DNA of 15,883 nt, from the NCBI GenBank assembly GCA_024278345.1, contig JAJRTK010000352.1, forward strand, positions 1-15,883, written 5' to 3'. Of the stretch, positions 5,845-15,883 are shown one piece after another (the stretch's first letter is position 1; every line of letters starts with the position of its first letter). The notes under the pieces were generated by a model that worked only from the letters and a program-made list of their open reading frames with translations, ran no database searches and was not told the DNA's origin. A program made the position numbers and the translations under genes. Source of the DNA: a bacterium. GTDB taxonomy: Bacteria > CSSED10-310 > JAJRTK01.

Positions 5845-7245
5845 TCACCGCGATTGTGCCTTGGAGCTCCCAGGTCGAGGGCGACTCCGGTACTTGCGGT
5901 ACAAGCGTTCCTGTTTCGTCTCAAGCTCTGCTCGTCGGCCCTGGATCCAGAGGGCAGTGACGTGGCTCCGTACCTCCAGGGGATCACCATCCGTGAGGAT
6001 AAGGTTGGCATCTTTCCCGACTTCGATGGAGCCAAGGCGATCCGCCACGCCAAAAATCTTGGCCGCATTGATGGTCAAGGCTTCCAGTGCCGCCTTGTAG
6101 GGCAATCCAAACGCCACCGACATGGCGGCGTGGTGGAAGAGATTTCGAACCGAGCTTGCCGATCCCGTTGTGAAGCAGAACAAGACCCCCGCCTCATGGA
6201 GCTTTTTAGCCATGGTGTACGACGTATCATACGGCTCGTCTTCCCGGACGGGAACCGACAGGACACTGGGCAGCAGGACCGGGATCTTCTTTTCAGCCAG
6301 CTCTGGAGCCATGCGCCAGGAATCTCTTGCCCCGTCGAGGACCATGGTTAGCTGCCGCTCTTCCGTCCAGGCGATGGCGGCTTTGATCGTGGGCACGTCC
6401 TGTGCGGTGATGATGAGAGGCATTTGTCCGTTGAGGACGGGCAGCAATGCCTCCAACCGCCGGTCTTCCGGGGGCGGCTGGATCTTCGAGTCCTTCTTGG
6501 CGGCTTTCTTGGCTTGCCGGTAGTTCTTGGCTGCGTCAAAGAGCTCGTTGAGTCGGCGGAGCTTTTCCTTTTCCTTTTTTTTCTTCGCCGGAGCGACTTT
6601 CGTTTCCTCCTTACCGCCCCGGAGATTGTTTTTTGGGAACAAGCCCTCTTGGTGCGGCCCCTGGCTCGGAATTGTCGCCATTTTAGGAAAGATCACGCGA
6701 ACGCCCGCGCCCGATTTGACGAGCATCTCTTCCCAGGTCCAGCCGTCAAGATTCATCACTGCCGCCGTGCCAGTCACGAACTGGCCGCCGGGGACGACCA
6801 TGACCGTCGTGACTCCTCCCCGGCGGGCTACCGGGATGAGGTGCGATCCCGGATTCACCGCAAGCTCAGTCTTCACATCGGGATTGATCCGACCCGTTTC
6901 CCGAGTATCCACCGATCCCTTCACCGTCGGAATCTCCACCAGGCCAAGAGTGGTGTGGCCATCGATGAAGCCCGGGAAGAGCTGACCGCCCTTTCCATCG
7001 AAGACGGGAATGCCCTCCGGCGCTTCGATCTCCGGGCCCAACGCCGTGATAATGCCCTCTTCCACTAGAACGGATCCGACGGAAAGCTCCCCGCCCACAA
7101 CAGCGTGGATCTGGACGTTGCGAATGAATACCGATGTTCCGGCCTCCGCCAGGCTTACCCCGGTGGCTGCAATGATCGGGAGGCTCAGGCTACATACCGC
7201 AACCAGTCGCTGGAGGCAGGTCTTGGAACCGGGTCTACGAGTCAC
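5845..7245 (-). CDS. Exported amidohydrolase-fold protein lacking metal ligands (likely pseudoenzyme)
   Basis: This 466-residue protein has the amidohydrolase architecture: a small N-terminal beta domain, a TIM-barrel core and a terminal GSIEVGKDANLILTDGDP strand. It begins with a Sec-type signal (RRPGSKTCLQRLVAVCSL, then hydrophobic to LAEA). The metal ligands are gone. Where active relatives have HxH it reads DGHTTLG (His97 kept, Thr99 replacing the second His). The strand-5 His position is in LIITAQD, the strand-6 His position reads LDGARD, and the strand-8 Asp is in FTTGSASS. A Lys-rich insert (about residues 210-255) interrupts the barrel. The frame is open back to a TTG overlapping the previous stop codon. 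The GTG at 7245 was chosen because AAAGGAGA sits five bases before it and the signal peptide then becomes N-terminal. It follows two paralogues in the same direction. Confidence 0.85.
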   Translation of the reverse strand: MTRRPGSKTCLQRLVAVCSLSLPIIAATGVSLAEAGTSVFIRNVQIHAVVGGELSVGSVLVEEGIITALGPEIEAPEGIPVFDGKGGQLFPGFIDGHTTLGLVEIPTVKGSVDTRETGRINPDVKTELAVNPGSHLIPVARRGGVTTVMVVPGGQFVTGTAAVMNLDGWTWEEMLVKSGAGVRVIFPKMATIPSQGPHQEGLFPKNNLRGGKEETKVAPAKKKKEKEKLRRLNELFDAAKNYRQAKKAAKKDSKIQPPPEDRRLEALLPVLNGQMPLIITAQDVPTIKAAIAWTEERQLTMVLDGARDSWRMAPELAEKKIPVLLPSVLSVPVREDEPYDTSYTMAKKLHEAGVLFCFTTGSASSVRNLFHHAAMSVAFGLPYKAALEALTINAAKIFGVADRLGSIEVGKDANLILTDGDPLEVRSHVTALWIQGRRAELETKQERLYRKYRSRPRPGSSKAQSR

Positions 7246-7250
7246 GGGAT

Positions 7251-7258
7251 TCTCCTTT
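7251..7258 (-). promoter_or_regulatory. Strong ribosome binding site that decides the GTG start at 7245
   Basis: The minus strand reads AAAGGAGA five bases before a GTG. None of the upstream in-frame starts (TTG 7449, ATG 7320, ATG 7287) has a comparable site, and all would bury the signal peptide behind a long hydrophilic extension. This leaves a 200-bp spacer (7246-7445) between the two amidohydrolase genes. It has no stop codon in this frame but shows no other recognisable feature. Confidence 0.7.
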
Positions 7259-7445
7259 GTCTTCAAGGCTGGTTTGCTGTCCAGCATGGAGGGAAAGTCT
7301 CTGTTTAACCTCTGAGCCATCCCCTTATTTTTTTGCTGGTGGGACCCATCCAGGTCAAAGACTCCGACAACTGCTTTTTTCTGCTGGTTGGCGTCCGGTC
7401 GGGTCGGCGGCAGTCCGTCCGCCGCCCCTCCCATCTCATCGCCCT

Positions 7446-9350
7446 TCAACCGGTCAACGAGCCCCCAAACCCTCTTTCCGCCTGGAAATGAGGGGATGCT
7501 TCAGGTTCACCCTCGTTCTGCTCCGGCGCCGTAAGCCTCTGTTCACCCTCGTTCTGCTCGGGCGCCGGGCCGGCTTCACGTGACCTGTCCGGCTGCGTGG
7601 CAACTCTGTCACTCGGCCCACAGTCAGCCTCTCCCGTTTTGCCCGGTTGCTCACTTTCATCCTGGGTCGGTGCAGGTGCGCTTTCATCGGGCTTGGACGG
7701 TTGTTTCGTTTCGCCTGGTTTCGCCGGTAGCCTCCCTTTGTCCGGCCCGGGGATTGGGCCGATTTCATCGGCCTCCTCCGGATCCGTCGCCTTTCCCGGC
7801 TCCGGGGCCTCTTCCTTTTTCCCCTTCTTCTCCCCGGACTCTTCCTTCTTTTCCTTTTCCGAGCTCTTTTTCGCCCGCTCTTTTTCGAGCTTTGCCAGTT
7901 CTTTCTTCTCCTTGGCGATCTCTTTTCGCTCGCGGCGGTCACGGTCGATGTCAAACCGGAGGTTCCCATCGACGAACGTTTTCTGGCAGATTGCATAGCT
8001 ACTCAACGGGTGGTGGGACCAGACCGCGAGATCGGCCTGCTTCCCCACCCGGATGGAGCCCACCCATCGTTCCACGCCGAGCTGAATGGCGGCGTTGAGC
8101 GTCACCATCTTGAGAGCCTCTTCCTCCGGAACGCCGCCATACTTCACTGCTTTGGCGGCTTCCGTATTCAACCGCCGAGCGAGCTCGGCCGAATCGGAAT
8201 TCAGCGTGACCACGGCTCCGCGTTCCCAGCAGAGGGCCGCGTTGTAGGGGATCGCCTCGTAGACCTCCATTTTGTAGGTCCACCAGTCGCTGAAGGTGGA
8301 GACACCGGCCCCGTGAGCCGCGATCTCGTCGGCAACCCGGTAGGCCTCCAGGGCATGCTGGAACACCTGGATCTTGAAGCCCATCTCCTCGGCCAGCCGG
8401 ATCATCGCCAAAATCTCGTCCGAGCGATAGCTATGGCAGTGGACCTTCCGCTTGCCTTCCAAGACTTCCACCAGAGCTTCCAGTTGGAGGTCTCGTCGTG
8501 GCGGAAGCAGGTTTCGCTCACCTTGCCGCTGTCGTTCAGAAAATGCCTGCCACTTGCGGCGGTACTCCTTGGCCCGGACAAACGCTTCTCCAATGGTCTG
8601 CATCACGCCCATCCGGCTTTTGGGGTAACGGTTGGCCTCGGGATCACCCCAATTCGATTGCTTGACGTTCTCGCCCAAGGCGAACTTGATGGTGGGCGGG
8701 GCCTCCTTGAAAAGAAGCCTTTCGCCGCTGGCTACGCCGTACCTGAGCTTGATGACCGCCGATTGTCCGCCGATGGGGTTGGCACTGCCGTGGAGGATGT
8801 GGGCCGTCGTCAGTCCGCCGGCAAGCTGCCGGTAGAGGGAAATACTGTCCGGGTCCAGGATGTCGGAGATCCGAACCTCCGCCGTCACGGCATTCGTGGC
8901 CTCGTTCACCTGACCCATGGTGGCGGTATGGCTGTGGGCATCGATGAGTCCCGGAGTTACGAACATTCCTCGGAGATCCAGGATCACGGCATCTTCCGGT
9001 ACGGTCAAATCGGCTCCTACCCCCGTAATGAGACCGTCTTCAATGAGCACATCTCCCCGAGTCAGAGTTCCCGCCTCGTCAAGAGTGATGACTGTTGCTC
9101 CCTTGAGGAGATAGGATCGGGCATCTCGCGGTACGGGTTTCCCGATGTTTCCCGCTCCCTCCCTTGGATCATCCACTGTCTCCTTTACCTTGACGGTTTC
9201 CACCGCGCTATGGTCAGCCTCTTTTTTCTGGTTTGTTAGAGAAATCGCGTCATCCGCCGATACGCCCGGTGCCTCCAAGAGGGGAACTGCAAAAAGGACC
9301 GCCGCCAGGAGCGGCCTCCAAAGGTCCATGAACGTTCTAGTGTTGCCCAT
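7446..9350 (-). CDS. Exported metal-dependent amidohydrolase with Lys/Glu-rich C-terminal tail
   Basis: This is the one member of the triplet with a complete active site: His139 and His141 (GLIDAHSHT), His304/His306 (KVHCHSY), His332 (VFQHALE) and Asp386 (LNSDSAE). LHGSANPIGGQS and KFALGENVKQSNWGD are signatures of the imidazolonepropionase/Xaa-Pro-dipeptidase-like amidohydrolases. It should hydrolyse an amide or cyclic amide outside the cytoplasm; the substrate is unknown. An N-terminal hydrophobic signal ends at GVSADD. The catalytic part ends near residue 468. The last ~165 residues are low complexity: first Lys/Glu-rich, probably a helix, then Pro/Glu-rich with a 12-residue repeat (PEQNEGE). 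Start: ATG 9350 lies eight bases after GGAGG. ATG 9356, which overlaps the previous stop as ATGA, is only two bases from it but remains possible. Confidence 0.9.
   Translation of the reverse strand: MGNTRTFMDLWRPLLAAVLFAVPLLEAPGVSADDAISLTNQKKEADHSAVETVKVKETVDDPREGAGNIGKPVPRDARSYLLKGATVITLDEAGTLTRGDVLIEDGLITGVGADLTVPEDAVILDLRGMFVTPGLIDAHSHTATMGQVNEATNAVTAEVRISDILDPDSISLYRQLAGGLTTAHILHGSANPIGGQSAVIKLRYGVASGERLLFKEAPPTIKFALGENVKQSNWGDPEANRYPKSRMGVMQTIGEAFVRAKEYRRKWQAFSERQRQGERNLLPPRRDLQLEALVEVLEGKRKVHCHSYRSDEILAMIRLAEEMGFKIQVFQHALEAYRVADEIAAHGAGVSTFSDWWTYKMEVYEAIPYNAALCWERGAVVTLNSDSAELARRLNTEAAKAVKYGGVPEEEALKMVTLNAAIQLGVERWVGSIRVGKQADLAVWSHHPLSSYAICQKTFVDGNLRFDIDRDRRERKEIAKEKKELAKLEKERAKKSSEKEKKEESGEKKGKKEEAPEPGKATDPEEADEIGPIPGPDKGRLPAKPGETKQPSKPDESAPAPTQDESEQPGKTGEADCGPSDRVATQPDRSREAGPAPEQNEGEQRLTAPEQNEGEPEASPHFQAERGFGGSLTG
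7505..7567 (-). repeat. 36-bp in-frame tandem repeat in the amidohydrolase tail
   Basis: The run beginning GTTCACCCTCGTTCTGCTC at 7505 recurs at 7541, nearly identical over about 26 bases, giving a 36-bp period. In the protein this is a 12-residue repeat containing APEQNEGE. It lies in the disordered tail, where gain or loss of units would not harm the catalytic domain. Confidence 0.75.
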
Positions 9351-9352
9351 GA

Positions 9353-11008
9353 TCATCCCCTCCTTCCGTCGGGAGTCCCGGTCCGCACACCACTGAGATT
9401 CCCTGATTCGCCGTCGGGCATGCCAAAGGTTCCCGTCAGGGAATCGCCCGCTACGACAACCTCCAGGGCGATCTCGCCACTCATTCCCACTTTATCGCCG
9501 CTCAGGGTTAGGGTCACGGCATTTCCTTCCACTTCCACGGAAAGAAATGGCAGCTCCGTCCCCATGGCCGTGATACTTCCGTCATATTCCCCTGAATCCC
9601 CGCTGATGACCATCGTTGCCGGGATCTTTCCCCCGGGAGTCTCAAAAGTCAATTCCCAAGTGCCGGCAAAGTCCATCTTGGCCGTGGGATCGCCTTTGGC
9701 GATGCTCTCCTTCACCTCGATTTTCCTACCGTCAATCACCAGAAACCGAACCTTGGTTTTCTTCTCAAATAACTTGCCATCCGTGACCATCAGGTTCGCG
9801 ATCTTTCCCTTTTCGATGGAACCGAGCATCTCATCGACACCCAGGATTCGAGCCGGTTCGATAGTCGATGCCGCTACTGCCGCCCAGTGGGGAAGTCCCG
9901 CCTCCATCGCACGGCGGACTCGCGCCGGAAAATCCGCGGGGTTCGCCAGGCCAAAGGTCGTGAAGGCGAATCTGATACCCTGCTCGTGGAGTAGCCGTGC
10001 CGTCGTCGGGATGTCCCGCCTTTCCCGCAGGTCGAAGACTGAGTCGTAGTCCGCCTCTTCATCCAGATCCTTGGGCGGCTGAGGATAATCCACTGACAGG
10101 ATCACCTCCGCCCCGCTAGCTGCAAGGGCATCCACGATCCGGTAGCCGTCCCGTAACCCCGCCAGAATTGGCCGCACTCCGAACTCTTTGGCAAGCTCCA
10201 GGGCCCGCGCTCCCCAATGCCAGTTCTCCACCTCAAAAACTACAGGAAGCCGCTGGCGGACCACCGGGAGAAGAGCTTCCAGTGCCGCATCGAAGGCGGG
10301 TCGCTTGAATCCTCGACCGTGGGTCCGCCGGAAGCGCTCTAGCTCAAGGCCGTAATGATCGGCGTCCAGAAGATTTTGGCGAATGTGGGCGATGGCACCC
10401 ATTCTGGAGCCAGGATAGGTCCGATCATTCCTCTCCGGCTGGAAATTGAGATGAAGTGACACTTGAAGGGCGATCAACTGCTCGTTTGGGGCGCCTTCTC
10501 CAAGGGAGATGAGAGCACTGGAACCCAGAAAAACGTTGCCCTTTGGAACCATGAGCGCCGCGGTGAATCCGAGCTTACGCAGCTTTGCCAATTCCGACTT
10601 CGAAAGCACCATCTCGTCCGAGGCTCGCCGCTCCGGCTGCAGCTCCGGAAGGTCGTGACCATATCCCGGCGGCGGCTTCGCATCTTTTTCTTTCCGTTTT
10701 GCGGAGGGTGTGAAGAGGGATGTCCGAGGATCCAGCAGCCCCGGATAAACCGTCAAACCCTCGCAATCAAGAACCACCGCGTCGCCCGGGATGGGAATTT
10801 CCGCACCCACGGCCTCGATGATGCCGTCCCGGACTAGAATCGTCCCCTTTTCGATTTCGGGAAAGGTCACGGGAACAATGTGGGCCGAAGTGAAGGCATA
10901 GGCCCGAGGCCGGAACTCGACTTCGCGCTCGGCCGCAATCGACTGGCCAACCAGAGCAAGAACCGCGGCCAATGCCGGCCAACAGAAGAGTCTTCGTGGA
11001 AAGGGCAT
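9353..11008 (-). CDS. Exported amidohydrolase-fold protein without metal ligands, with C-terminal beta domain
   Basis: This 551-residue protein is the first of the three paralogues in transcription order. The signal peptide is PRRLFCWPALAAVLALVGQSIAA. The amidohydrolase framework is clear, including VYPGLLDP and GSIEKGKIANLMVTDGKLFE, but the HxH motif has become PRTSLF (Arg95, Ser97). The strand-5 His region reads VVFEVENWHW, strand 6 reads LAGLRDG and strand 8 FTTFGLAN, so no metal site is visible. From about residue 447 a ~95-residue beta-rich domain begins (FAGTWELTFETPGGKIPATM), resembling lipocalin-like or sandwich domains that end other exported enzymes. Start: ATG 11008 has GGAG six bases upstream. 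A TTG at 11035 has no ribosome site and would push the signal inward. Its stop codon is next to the start of the following amidohydrolase, so the two are probably co-translated. Confidence 0.85.
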   Translation of the reverse strand: MPFPRRLFCWPALAAVLALVGQSIAAEREVEFRPRAYAFTSAHIVPVTFPEIEKGTILVRDGIIEAVGAEIPIPGDAVVLDCEGLTVYPGLLDPRTSLFTPSAKRKEKDAKPPPGYGHDLPELQPERRASDEMVLSKSELAKLRKLGFTAALMVPKGNVFLGSSALISLGEGAPNEQLIALQVSLHLNFQPERNDRTYPGSRMGAIAHIRQNLLDADHYGLELERFRRTHGRGFKRPAFDAALEALLPVVRQRLPVVFEVENWHWGARALELAKEFGVRPILAGLRDGYRIVDALAASGAEVILSVDYPQPPKDLDEEADYDSVFDLRERRDIPTTARLLHEQGIRFAFTTFGLANPADFPARVRRAMEAGLPHWAAVAASTIEPARILGVDEMLGSIEKGKIANLMVTDGKLFEKKTKVRFLVIDGRKIEVKESIAKGDPTAKMDFAGTWELTFETPGGKIPATMVISGDSGEYDGSITAMGTELPFLSVEVEGNAVTLTLSGDKVGMSGEIALEVVVAGDSLTGTFGMPDGESGNLSGVRTGTPDGRRG

Positions 11009-11180
11009 GGGTGTCTCCAGGAAGGAGTTCGTCAAAGAAAAGGGTGCAGCGCGCTGATTTCCGCTATTACAACGTGCTGGGTGCCTTGGTTCCGCATTTC
11101 ACGAAAGCGTGCCAAACCCTCTCTACTGTTCACCACCAGCCGCACACAGCTCTCCTCCGCACAGCCGACTCCAAGCCGCC

Positions 11181-15628: not shown

Positions 15629-15651
15629 AGGTGGTTTCCTTATGTTTTCTG

Positions 15652-15675
15652 GGCCTCGGTCATGGTACCGGCCAC
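15652..15675 (+). repeat. Left arm of perfect 24-bp inverted repeat
   Basis: The arm starts GGCCTCGGTCATGG and ends TACCGGCCAC. It is the exact reverse complement of 15829-15852. Pairing stops at both ends (15651/15853 and 15676/15828 do not pair), so the boundaries are sharp. Confidence 0.9.
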
Positions 15676-15709
15676 CCGAAAAAAGCGCGCAGCGCACAAA
15701 GATGTGGGT

Positions 15710-15806
15710 CCAGGGAGCTGGCTCCCTGGCGTGGGTCTGGGAGCGGCGCTCCCAGCGAGGGTCCGGAGGCAGAGCCTCCGCCGGGTTCCAGGGCTGGAAG
15801 CCCTGG
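15710..15806. repeat. Array of four consecutive hairpins with a conserved GGGT linker
   Basis: Stem 1 pairs CCAGGGAG (15710-15717) with CTCCCTGG (15722-15729). Stem 2 pairs CTGGGAGC (15737-15744) with GCTCCCAG (15748-15755). Stem 3 pairs CGGAGGC (15764-15770) with GCCTCCG (15774-15780). Stem 4 pairs CCAGGGCT (15788-15795) with AGCCCTGG (15799-15806). Starts are 27, 27 and 24 bases apart. Each hairpin is directly preceded by GGGTC or GGGT followed by T. Stem sequences differ but pairing is perfect in all four, the pattern expected when the fold rather than the sequence is kept. Confidence 0.85.
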
Positions 15807-15828
15807 TGCGGCGTCTGAAATCTGCACC

Positions 15829-15852
15829 GTGGCCGGTACCATGACCGAGGCC
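15829..15852 (+). repeat. Right arm of perfect 24-bp inverted repeat
   Basis: The arm starts GTGGCCGGTACC and ends ATGACCGAGGCC, exactly complementary in reverse to 15652-15675. It is the copy most like the repeat at 85-108 (three mismatches, same orientation). Confidence 0.9.
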
Positions 15853-15883
15853 GTTTTCTGCATGGTTCTTCTTGGGCTTGTAC

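Follow-up and report, generated by a model that had tools for sequence, protein, structure and literature searches.

The window, here the entire stretch of 15,883 nucleotides that forms contig JAJRTK010000352.1 of a bacterial assembly in the lineage CSSED10-310, carries on its minus strand three consecutive genes whose translations read as amidohydrolase-like (5845-11035), one of them with a long charged C-terminal tail. At its right end, upstream of a kinase gene, stand four perfect hairpins with stems of 7–8 bp and loops of 3–4 nt, whose starts lie 27, 27, and 24 nt apart (Table 1). An initial annotation had described four hairpins of 7–8 bp at 24- to 27-base spacing, and both this description and its coordinates are borne out: among 2,000 dinucleotide-preserving shuffles of positions 15640-15883 (244 bases), none contained more than two such hairpins and 1,913 contained none. 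The RNA fold scores z = −6.35, and folding the other strand as DNA gives z = −7.18, with the terminal repeats described below included in both.

A transposable element around the array

The array occupies the inner part of a 201-bp element (15652-15852) that ends in terminal inverted repeats and lies between target-site duplications. Because of these two features it can be recognized as a transposable element, and its movement follows from the same ends and duplications. They also supply what the initial annotation had missed when it stated that nothing in the gene content explains the array. The element is a non-autonomous transposable element of the MITE type, a known kind: it has 24-bp terminal inverted repeats, is short, non-coding, and dispersed on dozens of contigs, and produces target duplications of near-constant length, 8 bp long in roughly half of the element pairs compared and 9 bp long in a few more.

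Table 1. Features of the 201-bp element and its flanks, in window coordinates
Feature	Positions	Strand	Description
Left target-site duplication	15644-15651		GTTTTCTG, 8-mer identical outside both terminal repeats
Left terminal inverted repeat, 24 bp	15652-15675	+	GGCCTCGGTCATGGTACCGGCCAC, 100% complementary to 15829-15852
Leader	15676-15705	+	Small stem GCGC-GCA-GCGC plus ACAAAGATGT; a diverged form also in family B elements
Tagged two-hairpin module	15706-15757	+	Matched by the Synergistaceae-centred covariance model, 38.5 bits, E = 2.8e-8
Hairpin 1	15710-15729	+	CCAGGGAG-CTGG-CTCCCTGG; GGGT tag at 15706-15709; same unit in unrelated phyla
Hairpin 2	15737-15755	+	CTGGGAGC-GGC-GCTCCCAG; GGGT tag at 15733-15736
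Hairpin 3	15764-15780	+	CGGAGGC-AGA-GCCTCCG; GGGT at 15759-15762, private to the window copy
Hairpin 4	15788-15806	+	CCAGGGCT-GGA-AGCCCTGG; GGGT tag at 15783-15786 plus T; A-C mismatch in 18 copies
Right terminal inverted repeat, 24 bp	15829-15852	−	Perfect complement of the left repeat
Right target-site duplication	15853-15860		GTTTTCTG, directly outside the terminal repeat

Each hairpin of the window copy is preceded by GGGT, with one additional base between tag and stem at hairpins 3 and 4. The initial annotation, which had noted a GGGT before every hairpin, is right for this copy and wrong as a family rule: before hairpin 3, 54 of 61 copies read CGGAGGTC, and CGAGGGTC belongs to the window copy only.

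Copies and relatives in the host genome

In the host assembly (6.06 Mb, 550 contigs), 40 whole or partial copies were scored at 92–100% identity, and a 20-mer of the terminal repeat, with up to three mismatches allowed, matched 120 times forward and 123 times in reverse (backwards control, one and one). The many further copies that the initial annotation had expected of a functional element are thus present, as 40 scored copies and 243 terminal-repeat matches. Whole copies number roughly a hundred or more, a count made uncertain by the many contigs that start or stop inside the element; the repeat family is therefore one cause of the assembly breaks. The site upstream of the kinase gene is one insertion among these.

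Nearly all end pairs span 199–201 bp, and many copies are flanked by 8- to 9-bp target duplications, every one different. Compared over 8 bp, roughly half of 22 element pairs lack an exact duplication; in two of these, inspection by eye reveals 9-bp duplications, and several more are close to contig ends. One copy (C5:335-535) sits within an ISL3 transposase gene; once the 201 bp and one 9-bp repeat are removed, that gene reads through the site in a single frame. The anatomy of the element, namely, its terminal repeats, target duplications, copy number, and this interrupted transposon gene, thus shows mobility, and a putative transposase acting on the 24-bp terminal repeats and making 8- to 9-bp target duplications would move it. 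An autonomous partner with the same ends was not found in the 550 contigs of the host assembly, which break at the repeats. Among transposase families searched in the host genome, Transposase_mut (PF00872) had no match, DDE_Tnp_1 (PF01609) matched one fragment only, unlinked to element ends, and PF01610 matched the interrupted ISL3 gene plus a remnant. Around another interior, the terminal repeats were seen as one partial end (C206) and as one copy each on C96 and C36, with no transposase. The element is absent from all 59 other genomes searched, seven of them from the same phylum.

The partial end on C206 adjoins a stretch that reads as group II intron-like, and the copy at C239:1-229, with its flank (L213), adjoins a frame whose translation resembles the C-terminal part of an IS1380-type transposase. 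Window positions 15640-15883 and C413:25-268 (L009) share flanks and insertion site, and their element copies differ by about 2%, reflecting either a strain mixture or one repeat copy assembled into the place of another. L034 (1957-2190), L035, and L099 (1205-1336) contain relatives that are longer or have diverged and that have ends like GGCACGGGTCATCGTCTCGGCC and GGCCTTGGTCATCGTTCTGGCC, some of them nested with family B elements (described below); these are older layers of the same end family.

When 62 copies of the window element were aligned, substitutions were found at 38 of 3,609 stem positions (1.05%), 50 of 759 loop positions (6.6%), 76 of 4,053 linker positions, and 18 of 2,054 terminal-repeat positions. 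No hairpin pair has changed on both sides in a compensatory manner, and 18 of the 62 copies share the A-C mismatch of hairpin 4; the close copies have thus spread by duplication. Two copies carry hairpin 1 with an inverted loop, CCAG in place of CTGG, a footprint described for replication template switching between inverted arms (PMC8794818; PMC8604942).

These three observations, the lack of compensatory change, the contrast between variable loops and conserved stems, and the inverted loop, are what would be expected if the element were an ordinary MITE with functionless interior hairpins, whose likeness to modules in other phyla arose by convergence as template switching perfected G-rich palindromes. 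We consider this rather unlikely. Perfect arms and inverted loops follow from template switching, yet it gives no reason for the GGGT tag that the units share, for the richness of the 5′ arm in purines, or for the spacing, and it leaves unexplained why a model built from one phylum matches modules in others, as detailed below.

The same genome holds a second, larger and more diverse family, termed family B, at no fewer than 40 places with 78–95% identity to one query. Its terminal repeat, GGGTATCCACGCAAGGCGGGACA, differs from the ends of the window element, and its target duplications are 8 bp where read by eye (e.g., TGGAATGC at L098). Its interior runs from a similar leader through the same hairpin 1 to GCAGGGCGAAGCCCTGC, CCGGGGACGGAGTCCCCGG, and tandem CGAGTCACGCAAACGTGACCC units. 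As the same head and hairpin 1 occur under other ends, the hairpin arrays are cargo common to several element families. The number of tandem GTCACGCAAACGTGACCC or GGGTAACGCGCGGCGTGACCC units varies among the family B elements at L080, L081, and L095, and some of the units are small palindromes themselves.

The tagged module in other bacteria

The pattern GGGTCCAGGGAGCNNGCTCCCTGG occurs in at least 45 stretches of a collection of genome contigs, and its carriers among the matches listed are metagenome-assembled genomes (MAGs) that include Synergistaceae, Ruminococcus, Magnetococcales, Acetobacteraceae, Rubritepida, Sumerlaeota, and an uncultured proteobacterium. Downstream, outside the part fixed by the pattern, a second GGGT-preceded hairpin is common. 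A looser pattern, run over 290 genomes with a backwards control, gave 180 matches in the host genome, 32 and 33 in two genomes of family f132, and at most two in other genomes, with almost none in the control (none for the f132 genomes). Several relatives of one Synergistaceae genome have 10–43 matches. As such, the module has been amplified in a few genomes and is missing from most. Exact copies of hairpin 1 are absent from the viral contigs searched, and the plasmids gave no match. The likeness across phyla could be partly convergent, arising from a simple G-rich grammar, and its sources are MAGs, which may be impure.

Of 47 tagged units in the Synergistaceae loci, 28 are accompanied upstream, no more than 140 nt away, by a tagged unit in inverted orientation; the same is true of 63 of 2,000 random positions. 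Inverted pairs of two-hairpin modules flank an AT-rich spacer at L124, L131, and L132. In these pairs the stems of the two arms are perfect yet differ in sequence, as is often so in such elements; L132 is one example.

Stem pairing beyond the reach of the search pattern was assessed on units in which only the inner stem and the tag were fixed by the search and two outer pairs were free. Both outer pairs are complementary in 28 of 38 units, compared with 10.7 when partners are shuffled (maximum 19), and in 34 of 55 units of a wider collection, compared with 7.5. In a Synergistaceae-centred set of 20 distinct two-hairpin modules, 98.3% of cells pair and 8 of 15 pairs have changed on both sides (40 cells, which are not independent events because the modules are related to one another and a small number of genomes supplied many of them), with a covariation score of 0.415 against 0.178 for shuffled and at most 0.094 for slid alignments. 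Family B, represented by 22 distinct modules, gives a weaker signal, with 2 of 24 pairs changed on both sides (8 cells) and a score of 0.075, where shuffling gives 0.046 and sliding no more than 0.020. The initial proposal that the stems reflect compensatory change and not sequence duplication therefore holds between lineages, and weakly within family B, and fails among the 62 close copies of the window element.

A covariance model built from the Synergistaceae-centred modules alone matches the window three times, best at the tagged two-hairpin module and with 20.4 and 19.1 bits elsewhere in the same array. The model also matches the modules of the f132 loci, which had been retrieved by another pattern.

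Some of the covarying pairs in the Synergistaceae-centred modules are G-U pairs, and MITEs and REPs are known to affect neighbouring mRNAs (reviewed in PMC3733652). Both points are consistent with an array that acts as RNA, whether as transcribed hairpins that stabilize or end transcripts by genes or as a structured noncoding RNA. Nevertheless, we regard such a role as distinctly unlikely. A search of Rfam, suggested in the initial annotation, returned no family even at a relaxed threshold, and the window's own family lacks compensatory change. Furthermore, the four hairpins do not have the form of intrinsic terminators, since no T run follows them on either strand; only on the minus strand does T6 follow a stem, a weak one of 5 bp in the leader, and shuffles average 1.0 such sites.

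Relation to known palindromes and proposed interpretation

Bacterial MITEs such as RUP, NEMIS/Correia, ERIC, Nezha, and MITEAba12 resemble the window element in being short and non-coding, in having terminal inverted repeats and target duplications, and in inserting near and in genes in tens to hundreds of copies. They differ in their interior, which here consists of tagged perfect hairpins common to families with different ends. These hairpins in turn resemble REPs (Di Nocera 2013, PMC3733652) and REPINs (PMC3116915), 20-nt palindromes with a one-sided tetranucleotide, short loops, and stems of 6–9 bp with matched changes, found in several phyla and in inverted pairs. Palindromes of 20–40 bp in high copy are present here as in REPs. 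However, the described REP superfamilies have GTAG or CGTC as the defining tetranucleotide on one end of their stem-loops (PMC3733652), whereas the tag here is GGGT, the link to a REP-associated tyrosine transposase (RAYT) that characterizes GTAG REPs is inconsistent, and the window hairpins are arranged head-to-tail within a terminal-repeat element. The module class falls outside both the GTAG and the CGTC class. It seems undescribed; the papers searched contain no report on these sequences, an absence that is not proof of an undescribed class.

BIME- and RIME-type mosaic elements are modular combinations of palindromic units, as are the arrays described here. The present modules differ from them in being enclosed by elements that have terminal repeats and make target duplications.

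The tetranucleotide tag next to a hairpin, the loop sizes, and the clustered and inverted layout would also suit a REP mobilized by a RAYT, and the host genome does encode one Y1-type transposase (C390:22999, below the cut-off). We judge this very unlikely. Besides the differing tag, the gene association of Y1 transposases with tagged hairpins is poor: the flanks of the host Y1 gene contain no tagged hairpins, and G270 and the Ruminococcus genome carry tagged modules without any Y1 match. The window element, moreover, moves by terminal repeats with target duplications. At L201 (1008-1740), a Y1-type (RAYT-like) transposase gene contains two GGGCGGGTTCGGAACCCGCCC copies within its own reading frame.

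We therefore favour, as the probable explanation, that 15652-15852 is a MITE copy carrying REP-like, GGGT-tagged hairpin modules that also occur in other families and in unrelated bacteria. The interior consists of head-to-tail, G+C-rich, tagged hairpins of a kind that recurs in host families with other ends; most likely they act as selfish cargo, a palindromic module like a REP. The perfect stems may be kept since their structure is used, either by an enzyme acting on single strands or as RNA; alternatively, inverted-repeat template switching may keep correcting them. The reason for stem maintenance, as well as any effect on neighbouring genes, is here a matter of what we infer. An enzyme that reads tag and hairpin together, as RAYTs read GTAG REPs, would explain the tag, the arm composition, and the spacing. 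More tentatively, and with slightly less than an even chance in our estimate, the GGGT-tagged modules may constitute a further superfamily of REP-like mobile palindromes in several phyla, kept perfect via matched changes and spread, by a putative enzyme, as REPIN-like inverted pairs in Synergistaceae and as terminal-repeat cargo in the host genome.

The window element is parasite DNA of an ordinary kind, and the interest lies in what it carries, a strongly covarying pair of tagged hairpins that occurs in unrelated phyla, with copy numbers in the tens or hundreds in a few genomes. If this is indeed a third class of tagged palindromes, some enzyme or binding protein should exist that recognizes GGGT together with the hairpin, and carrier and non-carrier genomes would be directly comparable. 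The module also offers a natural test of what keeps the stems perfect, selection on the structure or template switching during replication.
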